A DNA stretch of 20,350 bases from a virus. The stretch spans positions 1 through 20,350 of the IMG/VR virus record IMGVR_UViG_3300042691_009040, one strand, 5' to 3'. A program made the translations under genes and the position numbers. Under the pieces are notes generated by a model that ran no database searches, was not told the DNA's origin, and saw only the letters and a program-made list of their open reading frames with translations. This document shows positions 5,065 to 13,822 of this stretch, piece by piece. Each line of letters opens with the position of its first letter. Within the stretch, counting starts at the first letter, position 1.

Positions 5065-6660
5065 ATGGACCTGTTTAGACGGTTTATTACACGAATTGGC
5101 TCAGGTTTGAGTGCTTTCTTCGGCGTTTCGCCGGAATTTGGCGACTCTAAGGTCACACCACGAAGAGCCATTGAATATGCGCCAGTATGGTACGCAGTTA
5201 ACAAGATCGCCGGGCACTTTTCACAGTTGCCTATCAACTGCCATCGACGGTTGGAACGTGGCAGCACAGTCGAGCGTACTCACCCTGGGCATAAGCTTGT
5301 TCATACTCGCCCGAACGAGTACCAGACTGCTCCTGAATGGAAAATGTTCGGCGCTCCGAGCCTGCTGCTATATGGCAACTGGCGGTGCCTGATCGTGCGG
5401 GAAGGATCTCGGCCGGTCGGGTTATATCCACTGCTGCCGGATCGCTCAGGCAGTGAATGGTACGAGGGTAAGCGATACCACGGCACGGTATTGTGCAAGC
5501 ATGAGCCGCTAGCAAAACTGCTCGGCGTGACCGAAGACAGCCAGACCGTGTGGTTTCCCGATGAGGATGTGTTTTTTGTGCACGGTCTCAGTTTCAACGG
5601 ACTGGCCGGCCTGAATGCTTCCGCAGTCATGAGTAACAGTCTCGATGCGGGGCTGTCTGCAGAAGATCAAGTAAGGAACCTTGCAAAAAAAGGTTTCAGC
5701 GGGTCGCTAATTCTTGAGGCTCCGGGCGGAATGTTCCGCAACGAGGAAGAAGCAAAGAAATTCCTGTCGATGTTTCGCGAGGCTCACGATGGTGCGGAAA
5801 ACACCGGCAAGACTGCCATGCTCCGCGAAGGCATCAAGGCCAACATGGTGTCGATGAGCGGTAAGGATTCCCAGTGGATAGAGCAGCGTCTATTTCAGCG
5901 TCAAGAGGCTGCAATGTGGTTCTGTCTTGAGGAGATTCTTGGCGACGATTCTAGTGTGTCCTACAACAGCCTTGCAGAAAAGCATTTGGCGTATTTGACG
6001 AACTGCCTGAATCGCTGGCTGGTGCATATTGAGGCAGCCTGTAATCGGTCTCTGCTGACAGAACGCCAGTTGACCAGTGAAACGCACTATTTCAAATTCA
6101 ACACAAACGCACTCATGAGAATGGATCCGCTCAAACAGGCGGAGTACCTGACGAAACTGATTGCAGCTACTGTCATGAGTCCTAACGAGGCACGGGAAAA
6201 ACTGGAGATGAATCCGTATGACGGCGGGGACGAATACAAAAATCCAGCCATCACGGTGACTGAACCAGTCGATGAGCCGGAAGATGTGCCAGACAATCCA
6301 GAACCTGACGACGATTCAGAGCCTGACGCACGCCAGAGAATGGCTATTGTTTCACGACTTCGGCCACTGCTTGCAATTGAGCAGCAGCGAGTGGCAGCCG
6401 CGATGAAAACAAAATCACCAGTGGCGGCTGTAGAGCGATTCTACGCCAAATGGCAGGACACGTTATCAGATGTGTGTGAGCAACTAGGCGGAACACCTTA
6501 TGCGGCCGCTGAGCACTGCCGGCAATCGCAGGACGCCCTCATTGAAATGATGGGACGCACATCCGTAAAAGCATTGCCGGACGCTGTAGGAGAACTTACA
6601 GCGGCATGGGGTGAACGTGTTGAGGAATTGGCCGACAACATACTGGGAGCGACAGTATGA
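5065..6660 (+). CDS. Portal protein, HK97 family
   Basis: This is a 531-residue protein from the ATG at 5065; a TTG at 5050 would add five residues. HK97-portal features include the early YAPVWYAVNKIAGHFSQLP segment, HPGHKLVHTRPNEYQT, LLLYGNWRC, VFFVHGLS..GLAGLN, and the wing/stem region with FSGSLILEAPGG and a late FNTNALMRMDP...YLTKLIAATVMSPNEARE. The dodecameric ring sits at one capsid vertex and passes DNA. After about residue 395 comes a very acidic Pro/Asp/Glu linker and then a helical C-terminal segment of roughly 110 residues with two-helix character, beyond the usual HK97 portal core. Its stop overlaps the next start (ATGA). Confidence 0.95.
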   Translation: MDLFRRFITRIGSGLSAFFGVSPEFGDSKVTPRRAIEYAPVWYAVNKIAGHFSQLPINCHRRLERGSTVERTHPGHKLVHTRPNEYQTAPEWKMFGAPSLLLYGNWRCLIVREGSRPVGLYPLLPDRSGSEWYEGKRYHGTVLCKHEPLAKLLGVTEDSQTVWFPDEDVFFVHGLSFNGLAGLNASAVMSNSLDAGLSAEDQVRNLAKKGFSGSLILEAPGGMFRNEEEAKKFLSMFREAHDGAENTGKTAMLREGIKANMVSMSGKDSQWIEQRLFQRQEAAMWFCLEEILGDDSSVSYNSLAEKHLAYLTNCLNRWLVHIEAACNRSLLTERQLTSETHYFKFNTNALMRMDPLKQAEYLTKLIAATVMSPNEAREKLEMNPYDGGDEYKNPAITVTEPVDEPEDVPDNPEPDDDSEPDARQRMAIVSRLRPLLAIEQQRVAAAMKTKSPVAAVERFYAKWQDTLSDVCEQLGGTPYAAAEHCRQSQDALIEMMGRTSVKALPDAVGELTAAWGERVEELADNILGATV

Positions 6661-7289
6661 ATGAAGGTTTTGTGGCGGATCGGCCCGCGTTCGAGTGGCT
6701 TACAGAAAAATCAGGCGGTTGGCAGTTCGGCGAGCAGGGCATTTTGGTTGCGTTGGCAAACCTGATCAACAAGCCGGGCCAGTGCGTTGAAGTTGGTGCT
6801 GGCGACGGCGAGGGGCTGCCGTTGACGATCGAGCCGTTTTACAATTACGGGCTTGATTGCGTGTTGTTTGAAAGAGACGAAGATTCAATCAGGCAACTGG
6901 CTGCTAAGTTTCCAAGGGCCAAGATACGCGGGGAATATGCTTTCGAAACAAGTTTTAATCTGGACGCACATGTAATGCTTTGTGTCATTGATGTGGACAG
7001 CATCGACAGTCTTATCATGGAGCATGTGCTAAGCAATCATCAGACGAGCATTCTGATGGTAGAGCATTTTGACAAATGCTATTCCGGAAACACGAATCAT
7101 ATCGCGCGTGTTCCGGCGTGGTTGCTTGGTCGCGAAATCGATGGCGGCTTTACAATCCAGGATAATGCGGCAACGATAAATTCAATCGCAATTGGAAACG
7201 GTTACACGCGACTCGGGACGACACGAGTCAATTCCATTTTTGTCCATGACTCTTTTGTCGAAAAGGTCGCGAACTATGTACCAAGCTGA
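6657..7289 (+). CDS. SAM-dependent methyltransferase-like protein (MT1)
   Basis: This 210-residue protein lies between the portal and protease genes. It shows a class I methyltransferase nucleotide-binding core: CVEVGAGDGEGLP (about 43-55, motif I), an acidic residue after beta-2 in LFERDEDSI (about 70-78), and VMLCVIDVDSIDSLI (about 106-120), which occupies the place of the IDVEG box of FkbM-type enzymes. The family transfers methyl groups from S-adenosylmethionine, in FkbM members often to hydroxyls on sugars or small molecules. The acceptor here is unknown. Its start is embedded in the portal stop, and its last 14 bases overlap the protease gene, so it is translated with the head genes. 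Virion or glycan methylation is inferred from its position. Confidence 0.72.
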   Translation: MNEGFVADRPAFEWLTEKSGGWQFGEQGILVALANLINKPGQCVEVGAGDGEGLPLTIEPFYNYGLDCVLFERDEDSIRQLAAKFPRAKIRGEYAFETSFNLDAHVMLCVIDVDSIDSLIMEHVLSNHQTSILMVEHFDKCYSGNTNHIARVPAWLLGREIDGGFTIQDNAATINSIAIGNGYTRLGTTRVNSIFVHDSFVEKVANYVPS

Positions 7290-7944
7290 TCACGAAACAG
7301 GCGAAATCTTTCTTTATGACGCTATCGGCTCGTCATTCTGGGGAATGATCGACGCATCCACAGTGCTGCCTGATTTGGCCAAAATGTCCGGGCGCAGAGT
7401 TACGCTGCGAATTTCATCACCCGGTGGCAGCGTCGACGAAGGGCGGGCAATCTTTAACGCACTCAAGCGGCATCAGGGCGGCGTTGATGTCGTGGTAGAT
7501 TCATCGGCTTATTCTATCGCCAGTTACATTGCCATGGCTGGCGATCGTGTCGTCATGGCAAAAAACGCCATGATGATGGTTCACAATCCGTGGACGATGG
7601 CCATGGGATCTGCTGAAGAGCTTCGCAAAACGGCGGACGTGCTGGATAAATATCGAGATTCAATTCTTGACGCCTACACAGAACGAACAAAGAAAACCCG
7701 CAACGCAGTTAAGGAAATTCTCGACGCGGAAACATGGTACACCGCCTCGGAAGCAGTCGCTGCCGGATTCGCGACAGAAGTAGGTGATATTGTCGTAGAC
7801 GCACCAGCGTTCGCCAAAGCGATGTATGGCAGCAAGCCGGAAGGCGAAAAGCCCAACGAACCAACGGCTGGAAGTCGGACGCCAGCAACAATTGCATCGC
7901 GTGAAATTCGGCTTCAACAGATCAAGGCTATGTTTGGACGATAA
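7276..7944 (+). CDS. ClpP-like head maturation protease
   Basis: This 222-residue protein starts at the ATG at 7276; an upstream in-frame extension would run across the MT1 gene and encodes nothing family-like. ClpP/SppA-type motifs are RVTLRISSPGGSVDEGRAIF (about 41-60), the nucleophile region DSSAYSIASYIAMAGD with probable Ser80, and MMVHNPW with His103. The third catalytic position falls in LDAETWYTASEAVAAGF (about 149-165), where Glu152 stands in the place of the canonical Asp, as is common in phage members. The enzyme clips the scaffold domain from the capsid protein during head assembly. A short C-terminal tail follows the catalytic domain. It precedes MT2 and the capsid gene. Confidence 0.93.
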   Translation: MYQADHETGEIFLYDAIGSSFWGMIDASTVLPDLAKMSGRRVTLRISSPGGSVDEGRAIFNALKRHQGGVDVVVDSSAYSIASYIAMAGDRVVMAKNAMMMVHNPWTMAMGSAEELRKTADVLDKYRDSILDAYTERTKKTRNAVKEILDAETWYTASEAVAAGFATEVGDIVVDAPAFAKAMYGSKPEGEKPNEPTAGSRTPATIASREIRLQQIKAMFGR

Positions 7945-7956
7945 GGTTGGTACGAC

Positions 7957-7962
7957 AAGGAG
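7957..7962 (+). promoter_or_regulatory. Shine-Dalgarno AAGGAG deciding the MT2 start
   Basis: AAGGAG lies 2 bases before ATG 7965 and 5 bases before ATG 7968. The spacing favours 7968 and argues against the in-frame TTG at 7947. Confidence 0.6.
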
Positions 7963-7967
7963 CGATG

Positions 7968-8576
7968 ATGGGAACTGCGGTAATTGTTGGGCAAAACATG
8001 CCAGACAAAACACTGGATTGTGTTGTTGACATGCACGATCGCACGATCATGTTTGAGCCTGTTCCGCAGGCTGCTGAAGCGTGCCGGAAAAGGTACGCAA
8101 CGCAGCCAAAGGCTATCGTGATCGAAGCGGCCTGCGGGGAGGAGCATGGCAAATGTGTATTTAATCTGTATAACACTGATGGGATATCGTCGTCGCTCGG
8201 CAACATTACAGCACAGGCTGAGGGCACATGGCGGAATGTAGATTTCAGCAACACCAAAGCGATCCATGTGCAAGTTGTGCGGCTCGACGATGTTTTGCAG
8301 ATGCTGGGAGTCACACAGATTGATTGCCTGGTGATCGATGCCCAGGGTATGGACTTTGCAATTCTCAAGACGCTCGAACCGATGATCAACGACGGCATGA
8401 TCGGTTACATTCAACTGGAAGCAGACGGGGCTGGCTTTTGTCACTACACAGGAACACCAGATAATTCAGAGGCAGCGATTCTGCAATGGATGTCTCAGTT
8501 TGAGCAATACGAGGCATCGCGATTGCCCGGCCGGATGGTGGAACAGCCAGATTTAGTGTTTACGTTTAAAGAATAA
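7968..8576 (+). CDS. FkbM-type methyltransferase (MT2)
   Basis: This is a 202-residue protein if ATG 7968 is used; 7965 adds one Met. The FkbM pattern is clear from the middle onward: FEPVPQAAEACRKR (about 29-42), ACGEEHGKCVFNLYNTDGIS (about 55-74), VRLDDVL (about 104-110), IDCLVIDAQGMDFAILKTLE (about 118-137) and IQLEAD (about 148-153). Oddly, the N-terminal motif I (usually DIGANxG) is shortened and poorly matched, with only VIVGQN near the start. SAM binding may therefore be atypical or weakened. FkbM enzymes usually O-methylate sugars or natural products. It sits between the protease and the capsid gene, a position normally free of extra genes. It is a different gene from MT1, not a recent duplicate. 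Confidence 0.82.
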   Translation: MGTAVIVGQNMPDKTLDCVVDMHDRTIMFEPVPQAAEACRKRYATQPKAIVIEAACGEEHGKCVFNLYNTDGISSSLGNITAQAEGTWRNVDFSNTKAIHVQVVRLDDVLQMLGVTQIDCLVIDAQGMDFAILKTLEPMINDGMIGYIQLEADGAGFCHYTGTPDNSEAAILQWMSQFEQYEASRLPGRMVEQPDLVFTFKE

Positions 8577-8579
8577 ACG

Positions 8580-8608
8580 TTGACACGATTCCGACAATCT
8601 GCTTAAAT
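8580..8608 (+). promoter_or_regulatory. Sigma70-like promoter candidate upstream of the capsid gene
   Basis: A perfect TTGACA -35 box (8580-8585) is separated by exactly 17 bases from TTAAAT (8603-8608), a four-of-six match to the -10 consensus. It begins just after the MT2 stop. Transcription would start near 8615 and run toward the capsid gene. Confidence 0.5.
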
Positions 8609-8616
8609 GCAGGCAC

Positions 8617-8634
8617 GCGGGGGAGTCATCCCGC
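8617..8634 (+). other. Leader hairpin near the predicted transcript 5' end
   Basis: GCGGG (8617-8621) and CCCGC (8630-8634) form a 5-bp GC stem with an 8-base loop, at the expected 5' end of RNA made from the 8580 promoter. It could stabilise the leader or be part of a regulatory fold. Confidence 0.35.
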
Positions 8635-8665
8635 ACCGAACACGAATTTTCTGAGCAACTCGTTA

Positions 8666-8720
8666 GCGGCCGGAAAAGTCAAAGCGAAACCATTTCGCCG
8701 ACTTTTTGCGCCGCTTTTTT
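8666..8720 (+). terminator. Intrinsic terminator upstream of the capsid gene
   Basis: This is a three-part stem: GCGGC (8666-8670) with GCCGC (8710-8714), AAAAGTC (8674-8680) with GACTTTT (8700-8706), and GCGAAA (8684-8689) with TTTCGC (8693-8698) around a CCA loop. Six Ts follow at 8715-8720. It would end transcripts coming from the terminase-protease genes, or those from the promoter at 8580, before the capsid start. Partial read-through would make it an attenuator. Confidence 0.72.
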
Positions 8721-8762
8721 CATGGCCTGAGTCGGCATCACAATCGACTAAGGACTATGGAA

Positions 8763-10112
8763 ATGATTTGGAATCTGAAGGTAATTCGCGAGCAAATTGA
8801 CGAAGAGCTTGGCAAGGTTGATGCCATCGTCGCTCTCGCAAAGGAGGAAAACCGCGACTTGTCGGCAGAAGAAACTGCTGAAGTGGATCGCATTCAGGGC
8901 ACTGACGACAAGCCTGGCGTTCTTCAGAAGCTTTACGCAGACGAAAAGCGAGCGGCACGGATGTCGCAGAATTCAGCCGCTCGAGTTCGCTCGATTGGCT
9001 CAATCGAAGTTGGTGGCCAGACCGGCGGTACGGCACTGGCAACAGCAGAGCCGCCTCGGGTTTTGGTTCCAGCGACTGCCAAGCGTCATGGCACTGTCAA
9101 GCACTTTAAAGGGCCAGACGCAGAGGCAAACGCCTATCTGACCGGCCGTTTTTTGATGGCTGCTATCGGTAATGATCAGAAGTCGAAAATGTGGCTGCAG
9201 GATCATGGCGTATCCATGCAGCACAGCAGCGACGACAACAGCAAGGGTGGCTACCTCGTCCCTGAAGTGTTGGAAAACGCTCTGATCGACCTGAAGGAAG
9301 AATTCGGCATGTTCCGGCGTTACGCCATGAACTGGCCGATGACTTCGGACGTTTCGCTTGTTCCTCGTCGCGTGTCTGGATTCACGACGTATTTCGTGGG
9401 CCAGAATGACACGATTACGACATCCACGACAGCATTGGATCAGGTGCGACTGGAAGCCAAGAAACTGGCCGCCCTGACGCAGTATTCCAGCGAACTGAAT
9501 GAGGATTCAATCATTTCGGTGGCTGATTACTACGCTCGGGAGTTTGCCTACGCTCTGGCAGTCCGTGAAGACCAGTGCGGTTTTCTCGGTGATGCTACCA
9601 GCACGTTTGGCGGCATTACGGGTGTGGCGAATGCTCTGGCTGCAGGGTCAATCGTCACGGCAACCGGCGTTACGGCCCTGTCCAATTTGCTGATCGGCAC
9701 GTTTCAGGAAGCCGTCGGCAAGCTGCCAGAATTCCCAGGCATTCAGCCCGCATGGTACGTTCACAAAGCCGTCTACCATGCGTCCATGGGACGCCTGCAG
9801 ATGGCTGCCGGTGGAAACACCGTGCAGGATCTGGGAAGCGGCCCTGTGCTGCAGTTCCTAGGCTATCCAGTGCGGTTTATTCAGACCCTTCCATCGACGG
9901 CATCGTCCGGAACCAAGATTGCCTACTTTGGTGATCTGGCGATGGCTGCCACGATGGGCACACGTCGCGGTGTGACGCTGCGGGCCGACGAATCGCTTTA
10001 CTTTGCTCAAGACGCTCTGGCGTTGCGAGTAACCGAGCGATTCGACATCAACGTGCATGAACGCGGAACGGCTTCGGCTGCAGGTCCGCTGCTGATGATC
10101 CAGATGGGCTAA
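8763..10112 (+). CDS. Major capsid protein, HK97 fold
   Basis: ATG 8763 is preferred because AAGGA at 8750-8754 lies 8 bases upstream; ATG 8757 is only 2 bases away and would add two residues. The product is about 449 residues. The first ~100 are a charged, helical scaffold (delta) domain starting IWNLKVIREQIDEEL, followed by a flexible linker. The capsid domain shows GGYLVPEVLENALIDL, LVPRRVSGFTTYFVGQND, AALTQYSSELNEDS, FLGDATSTFGGITG, a late AYFGDLAMAATMGTRRG and VTERFDINVHERG, all typical of HK97-fold major capsid proteins. The ClpP-like protease probably removes the N-terminal domain. The gene has a candidate promoter upstream and terminators on both sides, so it can be expressed as a separate high-level unit. 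Confidence 0.95.
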   Translation: MIWNLKVIREQIDEELGKVDAIVALAKEENRDLSAEETAEVDRIQGTDDKPGVLQKLYADEKRAARMSQNSAARVRSIGSIEVGGQTGGTALATAEPPRVLVPATAKRHGTVKHFKGPDAEANAYLTGRFLMAAIGNDQKSKMWLQDHGVSMQHSSDDNSKGGYLVPEVLENALIDLKEEFGMFRRYAMNWPMTSDVSLVPRRVSGFTTYFVGQNDTITTSTTALDQVRLEAKKLAALTQYSSELNEDSIISVADYYAREFAYALAVREDQCGFLGDATSTFGGITGVANALAAGSIVTATGVTALSNLLIGTFQEAVGKLPEFPGIQPAWYVHKAVYHASMGRLQMAAGGNTVQDLGSGPVLQFLGYPVRFIQTLPSTASSGTKIAYFGDLAMAATMGTRRGVTLRADESLYFAQDALALRVTERFDINVHERGTASAAGPLLMIQMG

Positions 10113-10146
10113 TCACTGAGCCACTCGTCGCTCCGGGTGGACCCGG

Positions 10147-10180
10147 CCGGAACGTTGGCTTGCTGGCGTTCCGGTCTTTT
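10147..10180 (+). terminator. Intrinsic terminator after the capsid gene
   Basis: CCGGAACG (10147-10154) pairs perfectly with CGTTCCGG (10167-10174) across a 12-base loop and is followed by TCTTTT. It lies 35 bases after the capsid stop and would separate capsid mRNA from the downstream genes, at least partly. Confidence 0.72.
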
Positions 10181-10216
10181 CAAAACCAATTGCACACATT
10201 TTCATAAGGTGATCAC

Positions 10217-10660
10217 ATGAAAGCAAATCAAAGAACTCAGGCAGTGATTGCACTGTCAGCACAGACGGCGGCAGCAACGGCAACGGTTGCTGGGACTATC
10301 GTAGACATGAAAGACTGCGATTATGCGACAATCATCCTCGCGACTTCAGTTGCGGCGAACACAAACGCTGCTCCAGTCGTCGTCAAGATTCAGGAATCCG
10401 ACACCACAACCACAACTGACTTCACCGACATCAGCACCAGCACGATGCAGTTGTCCGTGACGCTGTCAACAGCGACTGGCCGAGATGCGAAGTTTCACAT
10501 CAACAACGACGGCACACGAAAACGTTACGTGCGTTTGTTCGCGACACCTGGCACGCACACGACGAACAGCGTCGTCTCATTGGCTGCGGTTGCAGAGTTG
10601 ATGATGGACACGATGCCATCAGGCACCACAGGACAGGCCGACTTTGTCGCAATTGGCTAA
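10217..10660 (+). CDS. Thr/Ser-rich probable head protein
   Basis: This 147-residue protein starts at an ATG with AAGGTGAT about 5 bases upstream. It has no recognised enzymatic motif. It is rich in Thr, Ala and Ser, including a five-Thr run inside SDTTTTTDFTD, and is predicted mostly beta (VVVKIQES, LSVTLSTATG, RYVRLFATPG). Position right after the major capsid gene, its size and its beta character suggest a head decoration or minor capsid protein; this is inference. The next gene is the glycosyltransferase, so its many hydroxyl residues make it a conceivable acceptor. It follows a terminator, so expression depends on read-through or an unseen promoter. Confidence 0.7.
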   Translation: MKANQRTQAVIALSAQTAAATATVAGTIVDMKDCDYATIILATSVAANTNAAPVVVKIQESDTTTTTDFTDISTSTMQLSVTLSTATGRDAKFHINNDGTRKRYVRLFATPGTHTTNSVVSLAAVAELMMDTMPSGTTGQADFVAIG

Positions 10661-10688
10661 CCAAACTTAAAACACCCGGAGCAAACGA

Positions 10689-11351
10689 GTGACCTCAAAA
10701 TCTGTAAAAGTGTGCGGCATGATGACTTCGCCGCGTTACATCAATTGTTTTTGTCGAGACTACATAGACGCGGCATTTGTGGCGGCAAAGATTCCGCTGC
10801 AGGATTCGCAAGGCGTGTTTTACGGTCAATGTATGCAGCGGATGTTGCAACACGCCGTAGAAAAGGGCGTCGACATTGCCGTAATCTGCGACGGTGATTC
10901 ACTGTTCACAGATCGCGACATTATGCGATTGCTGCAGACCTTGGAAGCCAATCCGCATATCGACGCACTGGCATCCATGCAGATCCGGCGTGGAAACAAA
11001 ACGATGCTGGCAAGCATTAAAGGGCAATCGACAGCAGAGGTGGGCGGAACGCCGTTGCAGGTTTCGACAGCACATTTTGGGCTGACCGTGATTGATTTGA
11101 AGAAGCTCAAGAACGTTGCAAAGCCTTGGTTTTGGTCGAAGCCAGATGAGAATGGCGAATGGGGCGACCTTCGCATTGATGATGACATTTGGTTTTGGAA
11201 GCAGTGGGAAGCGGCCGGTAACACGGTCTATCTTGATCCGCAAACGCGAATCGGGCACATGGAAGAAATGGTCGTCATGGTTGAGCCGAACACATACGAA
11301 GCCGTTCACGCATACCCGAACGAATGGATTGAATCATGCAAGTCGAGTTAA
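10689..11351 (+). CDS. Glycosyltransferase-like protein (GT-A type)
   Basis: This 220-residue protein uses a GTG start with GGAG 8 bases upstream. It opens with KVCGMMTSPRY, like the first strand of GT-A nucleotide-sugar transferases. VDIAVICDGDSLF (about 61-73) supplies the metal-binding DxD motif (Asp68-Gly-Asp70). The later segment STAHFGLTVIDLKKL (about 126-140), then RIDDDIWFW (about 162-170), AGNTVYLDP and RIGH (His190), matches the acceptor/aspartate and metal-ligating His arrangement of these enzymes. It would transfer a sugar from a nucleotide-sugar donor; donor and acceptor cannot be told from sequence. It sits between head genes and overlaps the next gene by 16 bases. No membrane segment is seen, so it is cytoplasmic. 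Confidence 0.78.
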   Translation: MTSKSVKVCGMMTSPRYINCFCRDYIDAAFVAAKIPLQDSQGVFYGQCMQRMLQHAVEKGVDIAVICDGDSLFTDRDIMRLLQTLEANPHIDALASMQIRRGNKTMLASIKGQSTAEVGGTPLQVSTAHFGLTVIDLKKLKNVAKPWFWSKPDENGEWGDLRIDDDIWFWKQWEAAGNTVYLDPQTRIGHMEEMVVMVEPNTYEAVHAYPNEWIESCKSS

Positions 11352-13369: not shown

Positions 13370-13822
13370 ATGGCCACCGGAACACGTTTCAAAACTGGAA
13401 ACACTGCAACAATCACATTGGGCGGTGCACAAACTACGGGCATTACTACCGCATGGGCTGGAAACATCGTATCGATCAATCCCGGCGAATGGACGCTCGG
13501 AGAAAGAGACGTAACGCTGCTTTCTGATACTGGCTTCATGCGAGTTGACCCGCATGATTTGGCAGTCCCGAACGAAATTAGCGGAGTAGTGCGGTTCAGT
13601 GCTGCATTGGGAGTTCCGCCAATCGACGGAACAGTGGCTACGGTGACCGTCACACTGCCGCAGGTAAGCACCGCAACCACCGGAGTGACTCGCGGCACAA
13701 TCACCGGCAAAGCATTCTTTAGCCGTGTGGCATTTCCTCAAATGGCCAACAATGAAACGATGGACTCGGAATTTACCCTCAAAATGACTGGCGAATCACT
13801 CGCGCAGACTCGGGAAACATGA
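13370..13822 (+). CDS. Major tail tube protein
   Basis: This 150-residue protein starts at an ATG with AGGAG about 11 bases upstream, consistent with high expression. It is Thr/Gly/Ala-rich and mostly beta, with FKTGNTATITLGGAQTTGIT near the start, GEWTLGERDVTLL, NEISGVVRFSAALGVPP in the middle, and MDSEFTLKMTGE near the end, as in siphovirus tube proteins. Identity rests on size, composition and place between the tail-completion and chaperone/tape-measure genes; I see no single diagnostic motif. Many copies would polymerise into the tube. It overlaps the next gene by four bases. Confidence 0.75.
   Translation: MATGTRFKTGNTATITLGGAQTTGITTAWAGNIVSINPGEWTLGERDVTLLSDTGFMRVDPHDLAVPNEISGVVRFSAALGVPPIDGTVATVTVTLPQVSTATTGVTRGTITGKAFFSRVAFPQMANNETMDSEFTLKMTGESLAQTRET

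Follow-up and report, generated by a model that had tools for sequence, protein, structure and literature searches.

Glycosyltransferase and methyltransferase genes among the head genes of an uncultured tailed phage: a candidate virion-glycosylation system

To our knowledge, glycosylation of the virion has been established in only a few phages. In three papers (PMC12619734, PMC11652166, PMC13313380), which cite Freeman et al. (2023), mycobacteriophages and other actinobacteriophages are described as carrying a phage-encoded glycosyltransferase that decorates the virion, with glycans on the capsid and the tail tube; among the same sources, a methyltransferase gene of Rhodococcus phages is likewise read as pointing to a glycosylated virion. 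The archaeal Sulfolobus turreted icosahedral virus (STIV) encodes A197, an essential viral glycosyltransferase and a candidate for modifying the STIV coat protein, which is glycosylated (PMC10551542, PMC4187194). Here, we analyse a 20,350-base virus record, IMGVR_UViG_3300042691_009040 (positions 1-20,350; hereafter the window), which contains tailed-phage packaging, head and tail genes, and in which a glycosyltransferase (GT) and two methyltransferases (MT1 and MT2) are interleaved with the head genes.

With slightly better than even confidence, we read this region as a virion-glycosylation system within the late head operon, in which GT glycosylates a small head protein of 147 residues (head147) and the methyltransferases finish the sugar. 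GT, as a metal-dependent GT-A-fold enzyme, would take a sugar from the nucleotide-sugar pool of the host, in the cytosol, and attach it to Thr/Asn-rich loops of head147, either ahead of capsid assembly or in the course of it. MT1, together with MT2 in some phages, would then cap the added sugar by O-methylation. The head would thereby bear a methylated glycan, the exact form of which would differ among related phages through exchange of the methyltransferase genes. The gene order on which this reading is built, which had been noted in an initial annotation made from the window alone, was confirmed by gene calls and family matches, and recurs in dozens of contigs. The + strand carries all seven genes, starting with portal and running through MT1, protease, MT2, capsid and head147 to GT:

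5065..6660, + strand: portal protein, flank of the module (PF04860, 4.7e-65; phrog_12)
6657..7289, + strand: MT1, predicted class I S-adenosylmethionine (SAM) methyltransferase, probable remote FkbM relative (fold and motifs)
7276..7944, + strand: ClpP-type head maturation protease, between MT1 and MT2 (PF00574, 1e-28; phrog_94, 3.3e-69)
7968..8576, + strand: MT2, FkbM-family methyltransferase (PF05050, 6.5e-14; TIGR01444; start set from relatives)
8757..10112, + strand: major capsid protein, HK97 type (PF05065, 6.2e-31)
10217..10660, + strand: head147, small Ser/Thr-rich head protein (147 aa), proposed sugar acceptor (phrog_5707)
10358..10366, + strand: head147 loop 1, Asn48-Thr49-Asn50, candidate modification loop
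10544..10567, + strand: head147 loop 2, residues 110-117 (TPGTHTTN), candidate modification loop
10689..11351, + strand: GT, predicted GT-A-fold glycosyltransferase with start codon GTG at 10689 and DxD motif Asp68-x-Asp70 (model and motif)

The start of MT1 overlaps the portal stop codon as ATGA, and the protease ATG at 7276 overlaps MT1 by 14 nt; MT1 is therefore well settled in the operon, as opposed to being a loose insertion. For MT2, a TTG start at 7947 was set aside, the conserved ATG at 7968 being the most likely start as judged from relatives. A TTG start at 8706 was likewise set aside for the capsid gene in favour of the ATG at 8757, since indels in relatives speak against a coded extension. 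The median ratio of nonsynonymous to synonymous substitution rates was 0.15 for MT1, 0.14 for MT2 and 0.04 for GT, compared with 0.03 for portal and 0.06 for capsid, so that purifying selection acts on each of the three enzymes, and GT is constrained on a par with portal and capsid. Given this selection, and the presence of the same arrangement in dozens of uncultured phage contigs, the interleaved order is neither chance nor an assembly error.

Structure prediction, which the initial annotation had suggested as a check on the enzymes, was informative for both GT and MT1. The model of GT (predicted local distance difference test score, pLDDT, 88) matched the GT-A fold over its whole length. 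Its best structural match was STIV A197 (PDB 2c0n; Z 18.9, 2.5 Å over 173 residues, 13% sequence identity), followed by the human collagen lysine glycosyltransferases LH3 (Z ~17) and COLGALT1 (Z ~15), which act on proteins. Residues Asp68, Asp70, Asp164, Asp166 and His190 are invariant among 21 diverse relatives, and include the DxD metal-binding motif. Based on this model, GT is a GT-A-fold glycosyltransferase and would be expected to have transfer activity. The assignment leans on the fold and the DxD motif, as nothing matched GT above a curated family cut-off; only 2 of the 21 members matched Glycos_transf_2 (PF00535), the best at an E-value of 0.022 and short of the gathering score, and the window GT did not match at all. 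PDB sequence searches with GT, MT1, MT2 and head147 profiles returned nothing useful. GT resembles A197 in being a small viral GT-A enzyme that consists of a single domain with no additions, and a similar role in modifying a virion protein is proposed for it. In contrast, STIV is an archaeal virus with an internal membrane and another capsid fold, and the two papers cited for it (PMC10551542, PMC4187194) report no methyltransferase partners.

At least 592 matched stretches of the viral collection encode a GT relative. With two query sequences, no GT relative was found in 50,697 phage records. An attempt to assign a host was unsuccessful: GT is also encoded in two metagenome-assembled genomes, one of a Pirellula and one of a gammaproteobacterium, and no further GT was found in 241 genomes of the family of the former bin or in 200 genomes of the order of the latter. 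Both contigs may be mis-binned phage. The proposal that a phage-encoded glycosyltransferase decorates the virion is shared with the actinobacteriophage systems. Those systems belong to cultured phages, whereas the present GT family had no match in the phage records and sits inside the head operon. The present case differs in having a GT family that our search of cultured phage records did not reveal, a site for it within the head cluster, and methyltransferases that can be swapped.

FkbM enzymes are sugar O-methyltransferases. MT2 is, by its family matches, an FkbM methyltransferase, scoring 52.8 bits against PF05050 (cut-off 22.7) and 58.9 bits against TIGR01444 (cut-off 37.7). MT1 itself matched nothing in Pfam, PHROG or NCBIfam, and was assigned by fold and motifs. 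Its AlphaFold model (pLDDT 86) has a class I Rossmann-type fold and matches SAM methyltransferases with Z ~12-13, and its glycine-rich motif I (EVGAGDG) and acidic motifs are invariant in 16 relatives; as modelled, MT1 is thus a class I SAM methyltransferase. Some of its structural neighbours methylate proteins or RNA. Neither the window protein nor the other members reached the PF05050 cut-off, with the exception of a remote homologue found with the MT1 profile (L172:3208-3753), which scored 26.0 bits against 22.7. MT1 is therefore probably a far relative of FkbM, and we have not filed it in that family. The initial annotation had invoked FkbM-type enzymes, a label that holds for MT2, and for MT1 only as probable remote kinship. 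A profile comparison of MT1 with MT2 found no relation between them (probability 0.6%). MT2 and several of the replacement enzymes described below belong to FkbM (PF05050, TIGR01444), and are found here in phage head clusters. A comparable pairing occurs in genes 31-33 of Streptomyces phage ShakeNBake, where a glycosyltransferase lies beside an FkbM-like methyltransferase that shares 30% identity with MT2 along half of its length. Unlike the genes of the window, those of ShakeNBake come after the tail and lysis genes and not among the head genes, and we saw no glycan data for that phage.

Searches with MT1, GT and capsid, and then with profiles and a GT-less capsid, yielded 291 loci. As these overlap (some contigs were fetched more than once), counts are given per capsid cluster. 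GT comes after capsid-head147 in every GT-bearing locus, with a methyltransferase between head147 and GT in one clade; the phage-encoded GT is thus genetically tied to virion genes throughout the lineage, as expected of a virion-glycosylation system. The methyltransferases occupy four kinds of place. The portal-protease gap holds MT1 (in the window clade and others), MT2 relatives (L090, L094, L239 and others) or a Methyltransf_11 enzyme (L149), and the protease-capsid gap holds MT1 (L087, L107, L195) or MT2 relatives (the window, L218). An FkbM enzyme lies between head147 and GT in L080, L260, L267, L270 and L272, and methyltransferases are found upstream of portal in L041 and L172. Methyltransferases of several unrelated groups therefore swap in the same places. 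On the capsid tree, we counted 12 changes of arrangement among GT-bearing phages, one or two of which stem from mixed labels, so that about 10 is a fair figure. L100 has an extra methyltransferase-like protein in the protease-capsid gap, which was called by eye from motif I because no family matched. In L172:2684-3753, from a gammaproteobacterial metagenome bin, two methyltransferases of different groups are adjacent, directly upstream of portal, and GT is in its usual place.

At least one head-module methyltransferase was present in 30 of 34 GT-bearing capsid clusters and in none of the GT-less clusters. Leaving aside clusters found solely by methyltransferase queries, the tally was 24/28 GT-bearing versus 0/9 GT-less (Fisher p 6e-6), a p value that is only indicative, since related clusters are not independent and the counting was done manually on two lists of clusters. 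Together with the structural match to A197, this co-occurrence bears out the suggestion that a glycosyltransferase and methyltransferase set is tied to the head genes. In GT-less L155, a 207-aa frame after head147 was considered as a replacement enzyme and rejected; it matched no family, and reads as a frame that overlaps head147 out of register.

The initial annotation had named either the capsid or head147 as the acceptor. Head147 is present in both GT-bearing and GT-less relatives. Its Ser/Thr content is 0.217 in the former versus 0.169 in the latter (p 0.0008), and its Asn content 0.069 versus 0.032 (p 0.0002); a joint gain of Ser/Thr and Asn with GT was not seen in the capsid, connector, head-completion, tail, portal or protease proteins. 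Asn48 of loop 1 occurs in 25 of 28 GT-bearing clusters, and all 8 GT-less ones have a gap there, whilst Thr113 and Asn117 of loop 2 are conserved in 24 of 28 GT-bearing clusters and replaced in nearly all GT-less ones. We also looked for covariation in 16 distinct complete genomes, with backbone distance accounted for; the genomes are few, and p values are uncorrected for the number of gene pairs. Head147 and GT covary with r 0.86, which is partly positional, as adjacent genes recombine together. This does not apply to the link between MT2 and GT, which reaches across the capsid: MT2 presence was associated with GT (p 0.0075) and head147 (p 0.013), whereas neither capsid (p 0.13) nor protease (p 0.78) showed such an association. 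That head147 changes in step with GT suggests that the phage heads are coated with methylated sugars.

The window itself appears to be a recombinant. Its identity to the sister backbone, L125, is 88-93% for the terminase, portal, protease, capsid and connector genes, versus 63% for MT1, 78% for head147 and 79% for GT, and MT2 is absent from L125. Compared with L115, the same backbone genes are 75-86% identical (capsid 86%), MT1 85%, MT2 98%, and head147 and GT 97%. The window thus has L115-type MT2 and head147-GT alleles within an L125-type backbone, and identities of 97-98% on either side of a capsid at 86% point to a recent common source from which the intervening capsid was not brought along. 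We do not take this three-patch pattern as proof of joint transfer, since MT1, at 85-87% to its nearest relatives, arrived less recently than MT2 and head147-GT. As judged from these sequences, MT1 and MT2 are exchanged independently of each other. GT and head147 are constant among the 16 genomes, MT2 is present in 7, and MT1 is constant in the close clade and moves elsewhere. The three enzymes are thus not the single fixed set that had been envisaged at the outset. Of the pattern that the initial annotation had named as refuting its idea, independent occurrence at random positions, half was seen: MT1 and MT2 go their separate ways, but they do so within a few fixed slots and only in GT-bearing phages.

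It is conceivable, if unlikely, that the glycan of the virion is carried not by head147 but by a different structural protein, such as the major capsid protein or the tail tube. In mycobacteriophages, the subunits of the capsid and the tail tube bear the glycans (as cited in PMC12619734), GT distance is correlated with distance in the capsid as well (r 0.58), and the tail protein at 13370-13822 is Ser/Thr-rich whether or not GT is present. Against this, capsid, connector and tail proteins lack the GT-linked gain of Ser/Thr and Asn, the association of MT2 with GT skips the capsid, and the window capsid was not acquired together with its GT and MT2 alleles. We therefore regard head147 as a better candidate acceptor than the capsid, with its loop residues as a pointer and not as proof.

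Several observations weigh against a glycosylation system of the kind we propose. The GT state changes just twice on the capsid tree, so the contrast in head147 loops and composition rests on one or two evolutionary events. GT-bearing L082, L084, L092, L154 and L173 show no methyltransferase, some of them being on short contigs. MT1 alleles, tested against GT alleles in the 16 genomes, showed no linkage. Finally, the protease-capsid gap also holds unrelated cassettes. In L026:5304-6316, L033:5781-6592 and L034:5268-6808, it contains phrog_4652 proteins (188-189 aa) followed by repetitive, low-complexity open frames. In GT-less L287:3334-5577, it contains an amidoligase, a gamma-glutamylcyclotransferase-like protein and a weak match to class-II glutamine amidotransferase, possibly another protein-modification cassette.

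The methyltransferases could accordingly be unrelated cargo in an insertion-prone gap, with GT perhaps acting on the virion, and MT1 and MT2 on small molecules, RNA or other proteins. The cassettes just described, the independence of MT1 from GT, and the protein- and RNA-methylating neighbours of MT1 all fit this explanation. We nevertheless consider it improbable, because GT-less relatives showed no methyltransferase while several groups of them recur beside GT, an FkbM enzyme lies directly between head147 and GT in one clade, and MT2 follows GT across the capsid. Surface glycans are the substrates of many phage glycosyltransferases and FkbM enzymes, and the enzymes of the window might instead modify the surface polysaccharide of the host, for seroconversion or exclusion of other phages. 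This we hold to be quite unlikely, given that the window showed neither a flippase nor a membrane partner, that GT always keeps its place among the head genes and is constrained like portal and capsid, and that head147 changes with GT presence. Modification of phage DNA by GT and the methyltransferases is very improbable: some phages glucosylate DNA and the window phage has the DNA-modification gene Mom (PF25680, 6.8e-43), but Mom is a separate system, FkbM enzymes act on sugars, the GT fold matches enzymes acting on proteins or polysaccharides, and no gene for synthesis of a modified base was recognised in the window.

If virion glycosylation by GT is correct, it would extend to a large uncultured lineage, with a likely acceptor and its loops named. 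Methylation of the glycan would be a fast-changing surface trait. As the initial annotation proposed, such a coat might perhaps conceal the phage from receptors, antibodies or protists, or imitate the surface of the host. A more far-reaching idea, which we put forward tentatively and hold to be less likely than not, is that the head genes form an exchangeable surface-typing locus. A constant GT and a co-adapted head protein would be combined with methyltransferases swapped among a few fixed slots, altering the surface of otherwise similar virions in the manner of bacterial O-antigen variation, and in natural recombinants like the window phage, alleles of the enzymes and of the head protein would have been acquired while the capsid was not.

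The non-coding capsid leader (8613-8756) has mostly 91-96% DNA identity in close relatives, above that of the flanking genes. It contains conserved predicted hairpins with little covariation, so their structure is unproven, and no known RNA families were found in the window. Between capsid and head147, at ~10131-10160, a GC-rich inverted repeat is followed by TCTTTT. This terminator-like sequence, which was not among the elements listed by a scan of the window, could separate capsid from head147-GT. Further upstream, positions 1650-2847 encode a ParB-like protein and then the Mom-family protein, a relative of which (71% in the best segment) is also present in GT-less L164.

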